From a virus: 64,000 nt of DNA. Positions 18,450 through 60,099 of this stretch are shown here, piece after piece (within the stretch, counting starts at the first letter, position 1; every line of letters starts with the position of its first letter). Made by a program: the position numbers and the translations under genes. Below the pieces are notes generated by a model that worked only from the letters and a program-made list of their open reading frames with translations, was not told the origin of the DNA and searched no databases. The stretch is taken from IMG/VR virus record IMGVR_UViG_3300049491_000955, positions 18,082 to 82,081 of that record, one strand, 5' to 3'.

Positions 18450-18483
18450 CACTTTTATGAAAATAAATTAAATCAAAAACTAC

Positions 18484-18512
18484 TTGACAGCCGTAGGACT
18501 ACTGGATATACT
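18484..18512 (+). promoter_or_regulatory. Sigma70-like consensus promoter
   Basis: TTGACA and TATACT with 17-bp spacing, 30 nt before the ATG at 18543. Confidence 0.75.
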
Positions 18513-18542
18513 ACAGAGGTAATTAAGAAAGCAAAAAAAAAG

Positions 18543-19941: not shown

Positions 19942-20658
19942 TTATCTATAAAATTCTATAGCTTCTGCAATTGCCAATTTTGGCTCCAAACCTCTATCAG
20001 TCAGTCGCATAGCGTAATCCTCAATTCTATCTATCAACCTCAGGTTGGCTTCGTCGTGAGTGTCGCGCAACGTTTCTTTGGTACATCCTCGTTCTTCGCA
20101 AAGTTGTTTAGCTTTCTTGCCAAATAACGCCAGATTCAAGGTATCAGAAACATTGATGTAGATCCATTGGCGGTAGTTATCAGATACTTCGTGAGTATTT
20201 ACGTAGTCAGCGATCGCTTGCGTCCACGTCCTTCTAGATACTTTTCCGGCTATCCTGGACTTAAACCTTTCGTTTCTTTCTGCTTCAGTCCTAACCTTGC
20301 CAAACACAATATCAGCACGGCGCTCAATGGCTTCTGTGGCTGATGCAACTAACAAAGCAATTGCTTTTAGATTTCCTTTGGCAGCCAAAGCTCCCCAAAT
20401 GGCAGATGCCTGCTCAATAGTTAAAGGTTTAATTTTACTTATACCCTTAAAATGAATCGGCGGCTTAAGACTTTCCATGCACGGTAAGCTGTCTAGCTTT
20501 TCTGACCGAAGAAAGCGCGGATAGTTTTTATTTATGACATCAACAGCTTCAAAGACTTGATCTTGCGAAAGAATATAACTTCCATCCTCTAGCTGGAAGA
20601 CATCTAAGGGGATGTTACCAAGATGAATCGTGACACGAATAACGCTACCATTAGACAT
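19942..20658 (-). CDS. Modular antirepressor-like protein, shared C-module family (member 1)
   Basis: A 238-residue protein with an N-terminal beta module (VIRVTIHLGNIPLDVFQLEDGSYIL), a helical middle and the C-module shared by five genes in this window: RRTWTQAIADYVNTHEVSDNYR, LALFGKKAKQLCEERGC, LRDTHDEANLRLIDRIEDYAMRL, DRGLEPKLAIAEAIEFYR. The C-module is helical and may mediate DNA binding or oligomerisation. The gene is inserted between the K-like and I-like tail genes on the opposite strand, with its own promoter, structured leader and terminator: a self-contained cassette. Function unknown; Bro/KilA-like antirepressor by analogy with the KilA-N member at 55.4 kb. Confidence 0.75.
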   Translation of the reverse strand: MSNGSVIRVTIHLGNIPLDVFQLEDGSYILSQDQVFEAVDVINKNYPRFLRSEKLDSLPCMESLKPPIHFKGISKIKPLTIEQASAIWGALAAKGNLKAIALLVASATEAIERRADIVFGKVRTEAERNERFKSRIAGKVSRRTWTQAIADYVNTHEVSDNYRQWIYINVSDTLNLALFGKKAKQLCEERGCTKETLRDTHDEANLRLIDRIEDYAMRLTDRGLEPKLAIAEAIEFYR

Positions 20659-20752
20659 AGCTTGCCTCTTGATCAGGTAAGTCCCAGTGGAATCTTAAGA
20701 CTAGGAAGTATTAGTAGTACTTCTTAGTCTGCTGGGTATCAGATAATATTAA
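20659..20752 (-). promoter_or_regulatory. Structured 5' leader, member 1
   Basis: Minus-strand transcript. Outer helix CCCAG (20732-20736) with CTGGG (20683-20687); inner hairpin of 13 bp with one mismatch (arms 20718-20730 and 20698-20710); then the conserved single-stranded tail ACTTACCT and GGCAAGC just before the ATG. An AT-rich -10-like TAATAT lies upstream. The same architecture with a different inner helix precedes the genes at 46730 and 47640. Confidence 0.6.
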
Positions 20753-20768
20753 CACAAAATATACAGAG

Positions 20769-21359
20769 ATGAAAACCATCAAATTGCTAGGGAAACTTGG
20801 GCAGATATTCGGGAGAGAATGGCGCGCAGACATTCGTAATGCTTCTCAAGCAATAAAAGCGATCGCGTGTAACTGCCCCAAATTCACAGAGTATCTTTAC
20901 GCCAGCGAAGAGCAGGGTGTCAGCTACCGAGTTATCATCGATAAATCTCATCCAGAAGGGATAGACGCAACTCAGTTCGACTATCCAGTAGAAGAAGTAA
21001 TCATTATTGCGCCAGTAATTCAAGGGGCAGGAGGATTTGGTAAAATTCTTTTAGGTGGCGCGCTGATTGCGGCTGCCTTCTTTATGCCTGCTTCCCTTAG
21101 CTTCATAGGTCTGTCACTTAGTTCAACTACCGTGGGATTGCTTGGGGCAGCTTTGGTATTCTCTGGAATCTCTCAGTTAATCTCCCCGCCAAGCAAAACT
21201 CCTGCTACTTCGGCGGAGAAACAAGACTCATATTTATTCGATAGATCTGCTGGGTCTAGTGCTCAAGGGCTACCTATTCCTGTTGGATATGGGGAGAGAC
21301 TGCTGACGGACTTGATTGTGATTAGCCAGAACAACGTGGTCGAGCAAATTCCTACTTGA
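20769..21359 (+). CDS. Tail assembly protein, lambda I-like
   Basis: Residues 1-80 form a ubiquitin-like beta-grasp (MKTIKLLGKLGQIFGREWRADIRNASQAIKAI, then VSYRVIIDKSHP and VEEVIIIAPVIQGAGG). A Gly/Ala-rich hydrophobic region (about 95-140) follows, and the protein ends with the conserved SSAQGLPIPVGYGERL segment. This is the full layout of lambda gpI-type proteins. It works with K and J in tail tip assembly. Confidence 0.85.
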   Translation: MKTIKLLGKLGQIFGREWRADIRNASQAIKAIACNCPKFTEYLYASEEQGVSYRVIIDKSHPEGIDATQFDYPVEEVIIIAPVIQGAGGFGKILLGGALIAAAFFMPASLSFIGLSLSSTTVGLLGAALVFSGISQLISPPSKTPATSAEKQDSYLFDRSAGSSAQGLPIPVGYGERLLTDLIVISQNNVVEQIPT

Positions 21360-40923: not shown

Positions 40924-41338
40924 TCTCAAAATTACACTTCAGTTTTTTGTTAAGATTTGTAACAAAAATAGTCAAAATCGCCGTAAGCTTTGCTGTATAT
41001 AACTTGCGTAGAGTATTCATGTATAATAAGTGTATTATAGGACATTGCACTCTCGTCACAGTGATCCTGTATATATAGTCCCTTACGTGACTACTGTTCG
41101 AGCTGATCTTAGTTCAAATGTACTAATAAGAAAAGAGTCGATTTTCAAGATAGATCTTAGAATCCCAAAGATTGCACTCAAAGGCTTACAACTTGGTAGT
41201 CTTCTCCTCAGCAGGCAAGCGGCAAGCTTGGCACAACAGGAATGGCTCAATAGGACTTAGAAGCAACAGACAAGCCTTGCTGGGCAAAATAAACGCAGTA
41301 GAGACGCTGATTAATCGCAGACTGCTATCTGAAAGCTG
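40924..41338. other. Non-coding region with a TGTCACAG-type site
   Basis: No gene recognised. It contains GTCACAGTGATCCTGTATA at 41055-41073, which matches the inverted-repeat arm at 2142-2161, followed by an imperfect inverted partner. The 76-residue frame at 41030-41260 is not convincing. Confidence 0.45.
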
Positions 41339-41716
41339 ACCAACTACTGTTCCACTGCCAGAATTCTGCTAGTTTACCCAAGAGATTTTGAGGATGTTTG
41401 AGGATGAACGCATTACCTGGCATACATTACAGGTAACTAACTTTAGAAAAATTTGACTAGTGTGACGGGCAAATAGCTCGTAATTGAGTTGGGGCGATCG
41501 CCTAACCGACTACTGTGACATCGCCAGAATTCTGCCAAGTTACCCAAGAGATTTTGAGGATGTTTGGAGATGAACGCATTAGCTGGCATACATTCCAGGC
41601 GACTAACTTTAGAAAAATTTGACTAGTGTGACAGGAGAAGACTGGGGAATTTGGTTGGAGCGATCGCTTGACCAACTACTGTTCCACTGCCAGAATTCTG
41701 CCCGTCACAGTAGTCA
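41339..41716. repeat. Tandem array, 166-bp period
   Basis: The AGAATTCTGC element recurs at 41360, 41526 and 41692, giving a period of exactly 166 bp, with two full units and the start of a third. Units share AGAGATTTTGAGGATG, GATGAACGCATTA and GACTAGTGTGAC. The units differ by scattered substitutions. A further partial copy lies beyond the homing endonuclease gene at 42676-42738. Confidence 0.7.
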
Positions 41717-42682: not shown

Positions 42683-42738
42683 GTTGGGGTGATCGCTTGA
42701 CCAACTATTGTTTCACTGCCAAAATTCTGCTTGTCACA
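42676..42738. repeat. Partial copy of the 166-bp array unit downstream of the nuclease gene
   Basis: The block GATCGCTTGACCAACTA.TGTT.CACTGCC.AAATTCTGC matches 41660-41701 closely and is followed by a GTCAC motif as upstream. The nuclease gene therefore sits between direct repeats. Confidence 0.65.
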
Positions 42739-42765: not shown

Positions 42766-42872
42766 AAATATCTTATGCAGACATCTATTCACATAAGATA
42801 TTTGTCTTGTATAATAAAAAGTGGTTTAAGCATTTCCACCGCAGATGTTAGCAATAGCATCTGTTTTTTTTG
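42766..42872 (+). promoter_or_regulatory. Possible attenuator or small RNA leader
   Basis: A 12-bp inverted repeat (42766-42777, 42792-42803) precedes TATAAT (42810-42815). The predicted short transcript contains a GTGG/CCAC hairpin (42821-42839) and then a terminator (CAGATG 42842-42847, CATCTG 42858-42863, T8). The downstream gene starts 39 nt later. Confidence 0.5.
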
Positions 42873-42910
42873 TAAAATTATAGAGAGAGGTTTTGTTTTT
42901 GAGCAAACAG

Positions 42911-46365: not shown

Positions 46366-46623
46366 TTAAGGGGTGTCACCCCTCACAGTGTATGGAATTT
46401 TTTGTGATATGGAGCGAAGGTCGGGTTTATCTTCTTCGGTGAAAGAAGGCTTGCACTCAATTTCAAATTTTAATTCTACTTTTTTTATCAAAATACTTGC
46501 CAGATAAATAGCTTCATCGGCTAAGGCGTAAGGAGGAGTCTTTTTGTTTTTTGGACTGGCTACCAATCCTTGTAGAATTCTGCTGGCAACTTCTAAAAAT
46601 TGGCTCTGTGAATCTTGATTCAT
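46366..46623 (-). CDS. Small hypothetical protein, 85 residues
   Basis: Helical N-terminus (SQSQFLEVASRILQGLVASPKNKKTPPYALADEAIYLASILIKK) with a polar, acidic C-terminus. It is divergent from the first tandem modular gene, whose promoter overlaps its upstream region. No family is recognised. Confidence 0.5.
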   Translation of the reverse strand: MNQDSQSQFLEVASRILQGLVASPKNKKTPPYALADEAIYLASILIKKVELKFEIECKPSFTEEDKPDLRSISQKIPYTVRGDTP

Positions 46624-46631
46624 TGCAGATA

Positions 46632-46729
46632 TGCTAGAATATTTTGATACCCAGTAAAGCAGGATCTGCTGATAACATTTCCTGCCTTGATTTCACTGGG
46701 ACTTACCTAACTAACAGGCAAGCATATTT
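46632..46729 (+). promoter_or_regulatory. Promoter and structured leader, tandem copy 1
   Basis: Extended -10 TGCTAGAAT (46632-46640); outer helix CCCAGT (46650-46655) / ACTGGG (46695-46700); inner hairpin GCAGGA (46659-46664) / TCCTGC (46680-46685); conserved ACTTACCT and GGCAAGC before the ATG. Confidence 0.65.
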
Positions 46730-47482
46730 ATGTTAACAGTTCGTTTGGAAACCATCAAGTATGGTGGTTGGGATTCTTTGGAAGTTGCCATTGATATCAA
46801 TCAGGTTGATGGCAAAACGTTGTATGTGACTTATCCGACTGCCGAGACTATTCTCAATTACAGAGAAAACTCCGTCAGGGAAAAAGTAGCATCTAAATCC
46901 TTCAAACTCTTTCTAGGAGAAGGTTTGCCGCTAGGGAAATTCTCTGGTTCTATTGTCAATAAGCTAGGTTTGTCAGGCGCTAGAGCAAAAGTCAATTTGA
47001 TTGAGCTGAGTGACTTGATCAAATTAGCAGCATGGGAAGCTAGTAACGGAAATACTGCAATCGCCAAACTACTTGCAATTGGGTTTGGTGATTCTTTGAG
47101 GTCGTTGGCTTATGAGCAGCTTGGCATTGAAATTACTGCTGAAGATCGTCAAAGTTGGATTAAATCTCGCTTTGTAGGTAAACAAACTCGTAGAACTTGG
47201 ACAGATGCAGTCAGTGATTACATTAATAATAACGAAGTTTCAGAGAACTACAGAACATGGGTCTACAAGCACGTTTCTGATTCAGTTAATGTGGCGTTGT
47301 TTGGAAAGAAAGCCAAGCAATTGTGTGAAGAAAGGAAGTGCGATCGCGATAGTTTGCGCGATACTCACGATGAAGCTAGCCTCAGGTTGATAGACAGAAT
47401 TGAGGACTACGCCATGCGATTGATTGATAGAGGTTTGGAGCCTAAGCAAGCGATCTTAGAAGCGATTGATTTCTACAAGTAG
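46730..47482 (+). CDS. Modular antirepressor-like protein, shared C-module family (member 2)
   Basis: 250 residues. The N-module (MLTVRLETIKYGGWDSLEVAIDI ... TYPTAETILNYRENSVREKV) and middle helices differ from the next gene, while the C-module (RRTWTDAVSDYINNNEVSEN, FGKKAKQLCEERKCDRDSL, LRDTHDEASLRLIDRIED, RLIDRGLEPKQAILEAIDFY) is nearly identical to it at the DNA level. It is a regulator candidate by similarity to the KilA-N member at 55.4 kb. Own promoter, leader and terminator. Confidence 0.75.
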   Translation: MLTVRLETIKYGGWDSLEVAIDINQVDGKTLYVTYPTAETILNYRENSVREKVASKSFKLFLGEGLPLGKFSGSIVNKLGLSGARAKVNLIELSDLIKLAAWEASNGNTAIAKLLAIGFGDSLRSLAYEQLGIEITAEDRQSWIKSRFVGKQTRRTWTDAVSDYINNNEVSENYRTWVYKHVSDSVNVALFGKKAKQLCEERKCDRDSLRDTHDEASLRLIDRIEDYAMRLIDRGLEPKQAILEAIDFYK

Positions 47483-47487
47483 CGAAC

Positions 47488-47518
47488 AAAAAGCCCGGTC
47501 AATTAACCGGGCTTTTTT
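47488..47518 (+). terminator. Rho-independent terminator
   Basis: AGCCCGGT/ACCGGGCT stem with A-run before and T-run after. Confidence 0.85.
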
Positions 47519-47540
47519 AATCAATTTTTCTTTGCAGATA

Positions 47541-47639
47541 TGTTAGAATATTTTGATACCCAGCAAGGCAGGATCTGCTGATAACATTTCCTGCCTTTGA
47601 TTTTACTAGGACTTACCTAACTAACAGGCAAGCATATTT
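47541..47639 (+). promoter_or_regulatory. Promoter and structured leader, tandem copy 2
   Basis: Extended -10 TGTTAGAAT; outer helix CCCAG / CTAGG (one mismatch); the inner hairpin extends to 9 bp (AAGGCAGGA/TCCTGCCTT) by changes relative to copy 1. ACTTACCT and GGCAAGC are conserved. Confidence 0.6.
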
Positions 47640-48389
47640 ATGTTAACAGTTCGCAAGACCACTATCAATATTAGTGGCATCGAAATCGACGCTTATACCG
47701 CTGACGAACAGGACAAGCAAGGTAGACCAGTAAATTATTTATCAGGACAGGGAATAGCCTTGAGTATAAATTTACTCCACACTTCGACTGTGCAAAGTAG
47801 AATGTCTCAGGAGCTAAAAACTAGACTGGGAGCAGGTTTTTCTACTGTGCAAGGAAAGTGTAATACTACTGAGAACGCGAAGAATCTTGTATCAAAAATA
47901 TCTTTATGGACAGTTACCAATGCAATCAAGTATTGGCAGTACCATGGAAAACAAGGTAATACAAAAGCGCAAGATATTTTATCTGCCTTGGCAGAGACTG
48001 CGCTAGACATTGTTATTAATGACGCTTTTGGAAAGGATTACGAAAAAGGTCAAGCCCAAACTTGGACTAAATCTCGTTTTGCAGGCAAACAAACTCGTAG
48101 AACTTGGACTGATGCAGTCAGCGATTACATTAATAATAATGAAGTTTCAGAAAACTACAGAACGTGGGTCTACAAGCACGTTTCTGATTCAGTTAATGTG
48201 GCGTTGTTTGGGAAGAAAGCCAAGCAATTGTGTGAAGAAAGAAAGTGCGATCGCAATAGTTTGCGCGATACTCACGATGAAGTCAGCCTGAGGTTGATAG
48301 ACAGAATTGAGGATTACGCGATGCGATTGATTGATAGAGGACTGGAACCTAAACAGGCAATCGCAGAAGCAATTAATTTCTACAAGTAG
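47640..48389 (+). CDS. Modular antirepressor-like protein, shared C-module family (member 3)
   Basis: 249 residues. The first five codons match member 2, then the N-module is unrelated (TTINISGIEIDAYTADEQDKQG, IALSINLLHTSTVQSRMSQEL). From about residue 137 the sequence rejoins member 2 with only a few differences. This is what an exchange of the N-terminal cassette between conserved leader and conserved C-module would leave. Regulator candidate; target unknown. Confidence 0.75.
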   Translation: MLTVRKTTINISGIEIDAYTADEQDKQGRPVNYLSGQGIALSINLLHTSTVQSRMSQELKTRLGAGFSTVQGKCNTTENAKNLVSKISLWTVTNAIKYWQYHGKQGNTKAQDILSALAETALDIVINDAFGKDYEKGQAQTWTKSRFAGKQTRRTWTDAVSDYINNNEVSENYRTWVYKHVSDSVNVALFGKKAKQLCEERKCDRNSLRDTHDEVSLRLIDRIEDYAMRLIDRGLEPKQAIAEAINFYK

Positions 48390-49325: not shown

Positions 49326-49372
49326 CACTTATTTTAAAGAAAATGTATAATTTAAAAAAAGTTATTACAAAG

Positions 49373-49402
49373 AAAAAGCCCGGTTATTCAACCGGGCTTT
49401 TT
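49373..49402. terminator. Rho-independent terminator
   Basis: AGCCCGGTT/AACCGGGCT stem with A- and T-runs; the minus-strand gene at 49420 ends here. Confidence 0.85.
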
Positions 49403-49419
49403 TAATTTAACAGTTAAAT

Positions 49420-49614
49420 TTATTCTTCTTCAACCAAGGACGTACTGTAAGGATCAATGTCTACGCTAATTTCTGCGCTGTCATGCTCAACTCTTAACCC
49501 ATCAAGAATTTTTTCTGTTAGCTTCAAAATTTCTTCTTCACTCATTTTGCTAACGTCAACATTAATTATTACTTCTAAACTTAAAGTAAAATTCTTGTAG
49601 TTTTTGTTTTCCAC
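49420..49614 (-). CDS. Small acidic protein, 64 residues
   Basis: The strand-helix-strand pattern (FTLSLEVIINVDVSKMSEEEILKLTEKILDGLRVEHDSAEISVDID) suggests a compact alpha/beta fold. It has its own TTGCCA-type promoter and a terminator. No family is recognised. Confidence 0.6.
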   Translation of the reverse strand: MENKNYKNFTLSLEVIINVDVSKMSEEEILKLTEKILDGLRVEHDSAEISVDIDPYSTSLVEEE

Positions 49615-55037: not shown

Positions 55038-55044
55038 AATCTTA

Positions 55045-55073
55045 TTGACAAACGTGTTTCTAATGGCTATACT
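55045..55073 (+). promoter_or_regulatory. Sigma70-like consensus promoter
   Basis: TTGACA and TATACT separated by 17 bp, shortly before the ATG at 55096. Confidence 0.75.
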
Positions 55074-55095
55074 ATAGAAAATAAAGGCAGAAAAA

Positions 55096-55299: not shown

Positions 55300-55391
55300 C
55301 TGACTTTACACAGCCAAAATGATATACTAACAAAATAGCCCGCAGATAGTTCAAAGTATCTGCGGGCTTTGCACAAACCTAGCAACAGGAA
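55300..55391 (+). promoter_or_regulatory. Promoter and 5' hairpin leader of the KilA-N gene
   Basis: CTGACT (55300-55305), 17-bp spacer, TATACT (55323-55328). The transcript would start near the base of a 12-bp hairpin (AGCCCGCAGATA 55337-55348 / TATCTGCGGGCT 55357-55368), so the mRNA begins with a structured element. Copied at 56145-56290. Confidence 0.6.
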
Positions 55392-56141
55392 ATGTACATG
55401 TCCATTATCTTGCATAACTATCAAAATAGTCAAATTAATCAACTTGCTGAAGATACCTTGATCGCTGGAAAGTTGATTCCTAAAGGCTATGTCAATGCTA
55501 CGCAGATGTGTCAAGCAAATAAGAAGCGTTTGGACCACTACTTAGAGAACCAAAAAACTAAAGCCTTTCTGGAGGCGACTTCCACCGTTACCCGGATTTC
55601 CGGGGAGCGGCTAATTATACCAGTTATCGGTGGAAACGATAAGCAAATTCAAGGAACATGGTTTCATCCTAACGTTGCAAACAATTTAGCTCAGTGGATA
55701 TCACCCACTTTTGCGGCATGGTCTGCTGAAGTTTTAACTCGTGTTCTTCAAGGTGATTATCTAGCACTAACCGCAGAAGCTCAGCAAGCTGAAGCCAAAC
55801 TACAAGAAATTTGGGACAGACTACGTTTATCAGGTAAAGTAACTCGCAGAACTCTAACTGATTCCATTAAAGATTATTGTTTTCGTCACGACAAGTCCCT
55901 AAACTACCAAATATTTATTTATCCAAACGTCTCGGATTGTTTGAATGTTGCATTGTTTGGAAAGAAGGCTAAACAGTTGTGTGAAGAACGTCAGTGTGAT
56001 CGAGATTGCTTACGAGACACTCACGCGGAAGCTGATCTGAAAAATATAGATCACGTAGAAGCAAATGCTATGAAATTAATTGATAGACGAGATGTTGAAC
56101 CGTTGGAAGCCATGAGGCAAGCGATCGCACTTTATCTTTAA
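55392..56141 (+). CDS. KilA-N + shared C-module protein (family member 4)
   Basis: 249 residues. The N-terminal ~115 residues form a KilA-N domain (IPKGYVNATQMCQANKKRLDHYL, GTWFHPNVANNLAQWISPTFAAWSAEVL). The C-terminal part is the shared module (RRTLTDSIKDYCFRHDKSLNYQ, ALFGKKAKQLCEERQCDRDC, LRDTHAEADLKNID, EAMRQAIALYL). KilA-N proteins are DNA-binding phage regulators, often antirepressors. This member links the module family to known biology. Confidence 0.8.
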   Translation: MYMSIILHNYQNSQINQLAEDTLIAGKLIPKGYVNATQMCQANKKRLDHYLENQKTKAFLEATSTVTRISGERLIIPVIGGNDKQIQGTWFHPNVANNLAQWISPTFAAWSAEVLTRVLQGDYLALTAEAQQAEAKLQEIWDRLRLSGKVTRRTLTDSIKDYCFRHDKSLNYQIFIYPNVSDCLNVALFGKKAKQLCEERQCDRDCLRDTHAEADLKNIDHVEANAMKLIDRRDVEPLEAMRQAIALYL

Positions 56142-56144
56142 TCT

Positions 56145-56309
56145 CTCTGTCTACTGATTCTACACAGCCAATTTACACAGCGAAAATGATATACTAACAA
56201 AATAGCTCGCAGATAGTTCAAAGTATCTGCGGGCTTTGCACAAGCCTAGCAACAGGAAATGTACATGTCCATTATCTTGCATAACTATCAATTATTGACA
56301 AACATGTAG
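56145..56309 (+). pseudogene. Decayed duplicate of the KilA-N gene start
   Basis: Promoter, hairpin and first eleven codons (MYMSIILHNYQ) of the preceding gene are repeated nearly exactly, then the frame ends after five more codons (stop at 56307-56309) at the TTGACA promoter of the next gene. It looks like a duplication cut short by deletion. Confidence 0.7.
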
Positions 56310-56323
56310 CTACTAGATATACT
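56295..56323 (+). promoter_or_regulatory. Sigma70-like consensus promoter
   Basis: TTGACA (56295-56300), 17-bp spacer, TATACT (56318-56323); similar to the promoter at 55045. Confidence 0.7.
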
Positions 56324-56357
56324 GTAGAAATCAACAAAAATAATTTGTTTTATTTTT

Positions 56358-59095: not shown

Positions 59096-59247
59096 ATGTT
59101 TGCGTATCAATAAACTAAAAAAGTTTTTTTAGCGCAATTTCAAGAATTGGAAACTCACAGTTTCTGTAAGCATTAAGCTTAATTGTCTTATATCCTTTTT
59201 TATTCAGAGTTAGTACTGTTGTTGGATCTTGTCCGGTCATGGTACGG

Positions 59248-59349
59248 TATAATTATTAGATGCCGCAAGAGTAGCGCTAACTACTCTGTTAACAACGACA
59301 CATCTCCCTTGAAGAAGGAGATTAACCACAATCTAAGAGCAATTAGACA
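59248..59349 (+). promoter_or_regulatory. Promoter and structured leader, member 5
   Basis: TATAAT (59248-59253). The transcript would contain a hairpin AGAGTAG/CTACTCT (59268-59287) and a second hairpin ATCTCC/GGAGAT (about 59302-59322), then the ATG. It may be a divergent form of the leaders at 46.6 and 47.5 kb. The preceding ~150 bp hold no gene. Confidence 0.45.
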
Positions 59350-60099
59350 ATGGCTAACAGCATTATAACAGCTACCGTCGCCTTGGTTCCAGTTGGGCAT
59401 TTAACCATAGAAGGTTTGATGGATGAAGAAGGGAAATATTACGTTGCAGTAACGCAATTTAATCAACTGATAAGTTTCAGTGCATCCAATAACACTATAT
59501 CAAGGGACTTGAAACGTCTACTAGGAGAGAGTTTTAGTCCATCCAAGGCTAAAACTAATCTATATAAACAGCTTATCAATGTTTTCAGTATTGAACAGTT
59601 TGAGCTTGCTTTGACAAAATTAGATAGACTTGGCAATCAAAAAGCACAAGAGTTTAGAGATCAACTGGTTGGATTGTCTTTGCATCAATTATTTTCAGAT
59701 GCATTTAGTGTCAAATTTGAAAAAGAAGAACGTCAAGGATGGATCAAAAAACGCCAAGAAAATATAGATTCTTTTTGGTTAATTGGGGAAGCAACGGAAT
59801 TATACAAAAGCAGACATTCTGAATTATCTCAAAATACTCTGAAATTCATGTATCCTAATTACCAAGACGCGATTAATCGTGGTTTGTTTGGAAAAACTGC
59901 CAAGCAAATTAGAGAAATTCTTGGATTGTCCGACAAGAATAAATTGAATCGTGACCATTACGGAAAGAAAGCACTTGTTAATATTGAATCGATACAACGT
60001 TTAGCGGCACAATTAATCAATCAAGACAAATTGCCGTTAGATGCGGTTAAGCAGGCGTTAAGCTTGTACAGCTACCCGGTGATTGACTTTCTAGACTAG
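59350..60099 (+). CDS. Diverged shared C-module protein (family member 5)
   Basis: 249 residues. N-module ATVALVPVGHLTIEGLMDEEGKYYVAVTQ, helical middle, then a diverged C-module (ATELYKSRHSELSQNTLKFMYPN, GLFGKTAKQIREILGL, LNRDHYGKKALVNIESIQRLAAQLI). The key points G-K-x-A-K-Q, NY/N-R-D-H and the helix preceding the C-terminus remain, but the DTH motif became DHY. It shows how far the family can drift. Own promoter, leader and terminator. Confidence 0.7.
   Translation: MANSIITATVALVPVGHLTIEGLMDEEGKYYVAVTQFNQLISFSASNNTISRDLKRLLGESFSPSKAKTNLYKQLINVFSIEQFELALTKLDRLGNQKAQEFRDQLVGLSLHQLFSDAFSVKFEKEERQGWIKKRQENIDSFWLIGEATELYKSRHSELSQNTLKFMYPNYQDAINRGLFGKTAKQIREILGLSDKNKLNRDHYGKKALVNIESIQRLAAQLINQDKLPLDAVKQALSLYSYPVIDFLD

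Follow-up and report, generated by a model that had tools for sequence, protein, structure and literature searches.

Leaders of the regulator genes

The analysed window, a stretch of 64 kb out of an 82-kb virus record, carries five paralogous genes that encode proteins of 238–250 aa. Their common C-terminal domain matches phrog_2657, a "transcriptional regulator".

46730–47482, + strand: regulator gene 1, phrog_2657 C-terminal domain
47640–48389, + strand: regulator gene 2, phrog_2657 C-terminal domain
19942–20658, − strand: regulator gene 3, phrog_2657 C-terminal domain
55392–56141, + strand: fourth paralogue, KilA-N domain (Pfam, 3.5e-22) and phrog_2657 C-terminal domain
59350–60099, + strand: fifth paralogue, phrog_2657 C-terminal domain

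A first-pass annotation had noted structured leaders ahead of regulator genes 1, 2 and 3; hairpin leaders in fact precede all five paralogues. Measured from the sense -10 to the start codon, the leaders of the trio occupy 46632–46729 (+), 47541–47639 (+) and 20754–20659 (−), and they follow one layout: TGnTAnnAT, 5 nt, GATACCCAG, an inner hairpin, ACT(G/A)GGACTTACCT-N7-AGGCAAGC and the start codon (in another notation, the last segment is ACTGGG or ACTAGG, then ACTTACCT-N7-AGGCAAGC, then the start codon). The outer helix, inner hairpin and tail that had been described as shared are present in all three, but the sense outer helix of copy 2 is broken (CCCAG/CTAGG). Copies 1 and 2 arose by recent duplication (they are 94% and 84% alike), so that within the trio only copy 3 is informative. 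Read on the opposite strand, these segments contain two back-to-back hairpins between an antisense -10 in the first codons and the sense -10.

46632–46640, + strand: copy 1, sense extended -10 (TGCTAGAAT)
46650–46700, − strand: copy 1, antisense hairpin 2, outer helix CCCAG...CTGGG with inner hairpin
46701–46723, − strand: copy 1, antisense hairpin 1 (GCUUGCCU-N7-AGGUAAGU), over the ribosome-binding AGG of the mRNA
46730–46738, − strand: copy 1, antisense extended -10 (TGTTAACAT), within codons 1–3
47485–47521, no strand assigned: terminator hairpin flanked by an A-run and a T-run, which would also stop the copy 2 antisense transcript
47541–47549, + strand: copy 2, sense extended -10
47559–47610, − strand: copy 2, antisense hairpin 2
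47611–47633, − strand: copy 2, antisense hairpin 1
47640–47668, − strand: copy 2, candidate antisense promoter TTGATA-17-TGTTAACAT (promoter scan, 9/12, TG ahead of the -10)
20643–20651, + strand: copy 3, antisense -10 (CGCTACCAT, no TG)
20660–20682, + strand: copy 3, antisense hairpin 1
20683–20736, + strand: copy 3, antisense hairpin 2, inner helix replaced
20746–20754, − strand: copy 3, sense extended -10 (TGTTAATAT)
55320–55422, − strand: fourth copy, before the KilA-N paralogue, with a hairpin at 55337–55368 and CCT-N6-AGG at 55378–55389 (model R3, E 0.24)
56187–56291, − strand: orphan copy of the fourth leader, followed by a 14-codon ORF alone (model R3, E 4.8)
59241–59370, − strand: fifth leader, divergent, with antisense -10 TGTTATAAT at 59362–59370 and hairpins at 59268–59287, 59302–59322 and 59332–59347

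The orphan is 98% identical to the leader and first codons of the KilA-N gene and could supply an identical antisense RNA in trans. Other repeats lie in the window. The terminator at 47485–47521 is nearly identical to one at 49370–49406, both with A- and T-runs on either side and likely bidirectional; three similar promoter-like repeats occupy 18481–18519, 55042–55080 and 56292–56330; and a 166-nt unit forms a tandem pair (84% alike) at 41336–41667, with partial copies at 41322–41709 and 42683–42738.

Related leaders in viral contigs

A profile search with the C-terminal domain led to close relatives of these genes in viral contigs, which carry a leader of a second type: CACCGC...TTCCGGTGCAT, then ACCT-N6-7-AGG, then ATG. 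Searching for this pattern gave 12 stretches with 13 copies in seven contigs, and the 13 type-2 leaders precede shuffled KilA-N/phrog_2657-type regulators with differing N-modules and C-modules. Twelve of them were aligned without regard to structure (MAFFT; alignment A7), and the decayed copy L148:2153 was omitted. Several type-2 copies have a U-run beyond antisense hairpin 2, as in an intrinsic terminator; copies 1–3 have none past hairpin 2.

Among the relatives found by protein, L201, L203, L206, L207, L217 and L218 have no clear leader copy. In Nodularia phage vB_NpeS-2AV2, a cultured relative, the antisense strand at the KilA-N gene shows a comparable arrangement of two hairpins. The DNA pattern ACTTACCT-N{5,9}-AGGCAAGC occurs in 42 stretches of the viral contigs, none of them in the CCCAG/CTGGG context, and these were taken as chance; the long leader pattern had no match, the leader DNA gave only chance matches in phages and plasmids, and the protein query A3 gave no match. 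In plasmid relatives of the N-terminal part of gene 3, models R1 and R2 (see below) detected no leader, and R3 gave a single weak match off the gene (L053, E 3.8). Two contigs (L140, L144) contain N-terminal module fragments, with variable short stretches, directly ahead of the promoter of the full gene; they look like stored modules or recombination leftovers.

The strand that carries the structure

In copies 1–3, the sense folds have no extra stability over dinucleotide shuffles (z −0.49, −1.06 and −0.81), whereas the antisense folds are more stable than shuffles (z −3.75, −3.80 and −3.33) and lie 10–13 kcal/mol below the sense folds. Among the type-2 leaders, the difference between sense and antisense folds exceeds that of shuffles in only some of the 12, so energy alone is not decisive.

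Where the helices are mismatched on the sense strand, the mismatch is A.C, and nearly all of these positions become G.U on the antisense strand. The segment ACTTACCT/AGGCAAGC, an imperfect hairpin in the mRNA, becomes a full 8-bp hairpin, GCUUGCCU-N7-AGGUAAGU, in an antisense RNA. At 20.7 kb the inner helix has indeed been replaced, as the first-pass annotation stated, but the new helix has an A.C mismatch on the sense strand and is continuous only on the antisense strand, with G.U. The extension of the inner arm of copy 2 by compensating changes was not confirmed: the change is one-sided, a sense A.C in copy 1 being G-C in copy 2.

Counted over the window helices, which were picked by eye, G.U pairs number 11 on the antisense strand and 0 on the sense strand. 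The 12 type-2 leaders from seven viral contigs (A7) have 45 antisense against 0 sense G.U in 240 cells, with 187 Watson-Crick and 8 other cells; 12 of these 45 G.U cells belong to a single pair, among the 20, that was defined on the antisense strand only. In 23 copies the count is 72 against 1; such wobble cells are not independent, since the copies are kin. Since a wobble count may be biased when the helices are picked from a single strand, a strand-symmetric helix search that allows both kinds of soft pair was also run. It gave 17 antisense against 4 sense for the five window leaders and two Nodularia phages, 44 against 8 for 22 of the 23 model-aligned copies (one decayed copy omitted), and 24 against 6 for ten genome copies, compared with 413 against 439 in 300 random window segments. 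A contrary case is L200, a relative found by protein, in which one hairpin contains a sense-type wobble pair. Selection for RNA structure on the antisense strand is well supported. Both the strand of the wobble pairs and the fold energies speak against the sense-leader reading of this structure, which was rejected; the fold of the sense RNA is not favoured by selection. The locus is a clean case in which G.U pairs expose a "leader" as being read from the other strand.

Covariation

In A7, which was aligned without a model, 3 of the 20 pairs have changed on both sides, one of them through a G.U intermediate; none of 500 shuffles reached the number of double-change cells and 5 of 500 reached the number of pairs. 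The 23 model-aligned copies show compensating changes in 18 of 20 pairs (83 cells; 0 of 500 shuffles), and controls with slid partners gave at most 13 cells against the 83, in an alignment that was fitted to the model; alignments A12 and A13 are model-aligned and lean to its structure. Covariation across the relatives agrees with the earlier claim that a fold kept under sequence change indicates selection on RNA structure, though the structure lies on the antisense strand. Once the relatives are included, covariation is present and recent duplication alone does not explain the shared parts.

Covariance-model searches

A covariance model (R1) was built from A7. Over 291 cyanobacterial genomes it gave 4 matches at E <= 1, of which L222 and L223 are convincing, and over 386 genomes of the phylum 1 match at E <= 0.1 (L226). 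With these three added (R2), a search of 388 genomes gave 16 places in 15 genomes at E <= 0.05; the architecture is present in nine places at E <= 0.0011, three of them training copies, and in L238 (E 0.044). Model R3 gave 4 matches at E <= 0.01 in 386 genomes, L240 and L241 being new. L224 and L225 (R1) and L232–L237 (R2) are weak and were judged to be chance after inspection; L225 has a correctly placed 153-aa ORF but weak hairpins, and the architecture is absent in L232–L237. As a control, R3 was run over 239 Pseudomonadota genomes, and it was not a clean negative: the single match, L242, shows the complete architecture with a U-run, but its ORF is 48 aa long. This terminator-bearing copy (600–701 of its contig) points either to a contig with the wrong label or to spread outside cyanobacteria.

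Each of the 13 accepted genome copies has a sense-strand start codon 70–86 nt into the matched segment, and the bulged G of hairpin 2 is retained in most copies despite changes in the surrounding helix. Genes found by the RNA model alone include one for a KilA-N protein (L229, 2.4e-23), one for a Bro-N protein matching the anti-repressor Ant (L230; Bro-N 4.6e-19, phrog_130 5.9e-51) and one for a regulator (L222, phrog_4936, 8.6e-7). The L231 gene is regulator-like by eye, as is that of L238, with matches to sigma-70 region 4 and phrog_6287. HNH endonuclease genes stand at L226 (Pfam) and L240 (by eye), a ResIII/DEAD helicase gene at L239, a gene of no assigned identity at L223 and one for a 139-aa protein at L227, and short ORFs lie beside L228 (truncated, 49 aa), L241 (74 aa) and L242. 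At L227 (1501–2077) the next gene on the antisense strand, 45 nt past the RNA copy, encodes an IS200-like Y1 transposase, and the 139-aa protein opposite the copy looks exported.

In the window itself the scores are low. R1 matched the minus strand at copy 1 (46632–46748, E 0.85) and copy 2 (47541–47661, E 3.3), and the top eight matches of R3 without filters include copy 4, copy 1 (0.68), copy 2 (4.8) and the orphan. Four such placements would arise by chance at about 1e-9 if independent, but they are in fact two duplicate pairs. Two other R3 matches, 42797–42880 and 49360–49422, resemble terminators and were discarded. Copy 3 and the fifth leader were missed by every model, and the R3 genome search of the whole virus record gave no match. 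That the window RNAs and the model copies form one family is thus probable, and depends less on score than on layout, strand, position and gene family. Rfam 15 had no match at gathering score in the window or in 12 loci; sub-threshold matches at 47.5 kb came mostly from the terminator at 47485–47521.

A candidate antisense promoter

An antisense TAnnnT occurs within the first 20 nt of the coding sequence in 27 of 30 family genes and in 72 of 210 other ORFs; for TGnTAnnnT at the same place the counts are 17 of 30 and 12 of 210. For genes found by the RNA model alone they are 12 of 12 and 4 of 12, respectively (L242 came later and is not counted). The element varies: copy 4 has GATAAT and no TAnnnT, copy 3 lacks the TG, and the Nodularia phages have TGCAATAAT. 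A promoter scan reported a full -35/-10 only for copy 2, on the minus strand, and not for copies 1 and 3; it found 3 sites in the region against 2.3 expected and proves nothing by itself. Judged by sequence, the opposite strand has a candidate promoter of its own. The genes also share ATnnTAnCA codons, and since their N-termini differ, a promoter seems the best explanation of these codons. If so, a promoter here limits how coding sequences can begin.

Interpretation

The structure, its strand, the covariation, the conserved antisense -10 and the link to KilA-N/Bro-N/phrog_2657-type genes are observed; on this basis each leader is most likely the gene for a small antisense RNA, encoded in cis, which would keep the regulator from being translated by blocking initiation. 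Production of the RNA, its ends and the repression are putative. The RNA would start from the opposite-strand -10 inside the first codons of the regulator. Hairpin 1, the first in the RNA, would present an arm complementary to the ribosome-binding AGG; hairpin 2 would lie opposite the 5′ end of the mRNA leader, and the RNA would end there or beyond, facing the sense promoter. Pairing with the nascent mRNA would begin at the hairpin loops and continue into the arms, by which translation initiation would be blocked, and the face-to-face promoters may contribute transcriptional interference. For copy 2, the terminator at 47485–47521 is the farthest point that the antisense transcript would reach. 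Read-through could continue into the 85-aa ORF at copy 1 and into the tail assembly gene at copy 3, and both RNAs could then double as mRNA leaders.

The suggestion of a cis-regulatory leader stands as far as control of the gene family is concerned, but a cis-acting switch or stalling leader in the mRNA is at odds with the energies of the folds, the strand of the wobble pairs and the second promoter. The sense 5′ leader could still be such a switch, or hide its ribosome-binding site by folding the mRNA over its own AGG: a sequence that forms a hairpin has a complement that can form one too, and most type-2 copies do fold CCU onto the AGG by the start codon in the sense RNA. This is unlikely, given sense folds in copies 1–3 that are no better than shuffles and wobble pairs that favour the antisense strand. 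About equally improbable is that the antisense-strand RNA is merely the leader of a divergent mRNA, with no separate antisense RNA. Just past copy 1 there is an 85-aa ORF (46366–46623, −), and just past copy 3 the tail assembly gene (20769–21359, +; phrog_32, 1.7e-44), but an antisense ORF of at least 60 aa within 200 nt is absent in 10 of the 12 type-2 copies and also for copies 2, 4 and 5, L222 and L223, and a U-run ends several copies.

Autoregulation, with the dyads as DNA operators for the regulators themselves, would fit genes that encode predicted DNA-binding proteins (KilA-N, phrog_2657) and dyads that adjoin a promoter. It is less probable again: G.U pairs are useless to DNA dyads and break their symmetry, the helix sequence varies freely while the bulged G is kept, and the leader stays constant while both protein modules change. 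Finally, the likeness of the leaders might reflect a shared recombination flank of shuffled gene modules with no RNA function, as copies 1 and 2 are duplicates and the leader is joined to many N- and C-modules; set against compensating changes in 18 of 20 pairs that no shuffle matched, this is very improbable as the explanation, although such a flank could act in addition.

Beyond the antisense RNA at each gene, a wider reading is tentative. The two hairpins and a promoter that fixes how the guarded gene's coding sequence begins may together make up a mobile silencing cassette, acting by antisense RNA, that cyanobacterial phages and mobile genes carry. It would have reached genes with no relation to one another (KilA-N, Bro-N, HNH endonuclease, helicase, small proteins) and perhaps, with L242, hosts other than cyanobacteria. 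Through changes in helices and loops each copy would silence its own gene only, while the duplicates and the orphan at 56187–56291 would cross-silence. Should a strongly covarying RNA family that can be traced by models indeed guard many shuffled regulators of phages in cyanobacteria, control of lysis and lysogeny in cyanophages becomes testable.

Comparison with known systems

Antisense control of anti-repressors has so far been known from a few enterobacterial phages. The c4 RNA of phages P1 and P7 comes from the same strand and operon, upstream, whereas the RNA proposed here lies on the opposite strand, across the start codon. The sar RNA of phage P22 has two stem-loops in about 69 nt. KilA-N/Bro-N phage regulators with swapped N- and C-modules were reportedly described by Iyer et al. 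in 2002, as proteins and with no shared antisense RNA; the genes considered here belong to the same domain-shuffled protein family. In the portions of the open-licence literature consulted, no description of this antisense RNA was found.

A cyanobacterial parallel in form is the type I pair msoT1/msoA1 of Microcystis, which is reported to have a cis-antisense RNA of 56–83 nt with two predicted hairpins, pairing with the 3′ end of the message for a 63-aa toxin (PMC12390103). On that account the two share a cis-antisense RNA, two predicted hairpins and a cyanobacterial setting; unlike MsoA1, the RNA here would face the 5′ end and start of proteins mostly of 200–500 aa. Assignment to type I toxin-antitoxin systems was rejected, since these call for a small toxic membrane protein, while the window targets have 238–250 aa and small ORFs stand at few genome matches.

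In P22, the Sar antisense RNA is reported to block the ribosome-binding site of ant (PMC7968456, PMC2629481, PMC5415839). By position, the copy at the Bro-N/Ant gene L230 is likewise placed as an antisense RNA across the start site of an anti-repressor, and the phrog_2657/KilA-N genes of the window may have an anti-repressor role as well. The phages and hosts are different, the antisense -10 here overlaps the first codons, and one RNA is found on many unrelated genes. The best reading is that the putative RNA would work as P22 sar does on ant, a likeness of action rather than shown homology.
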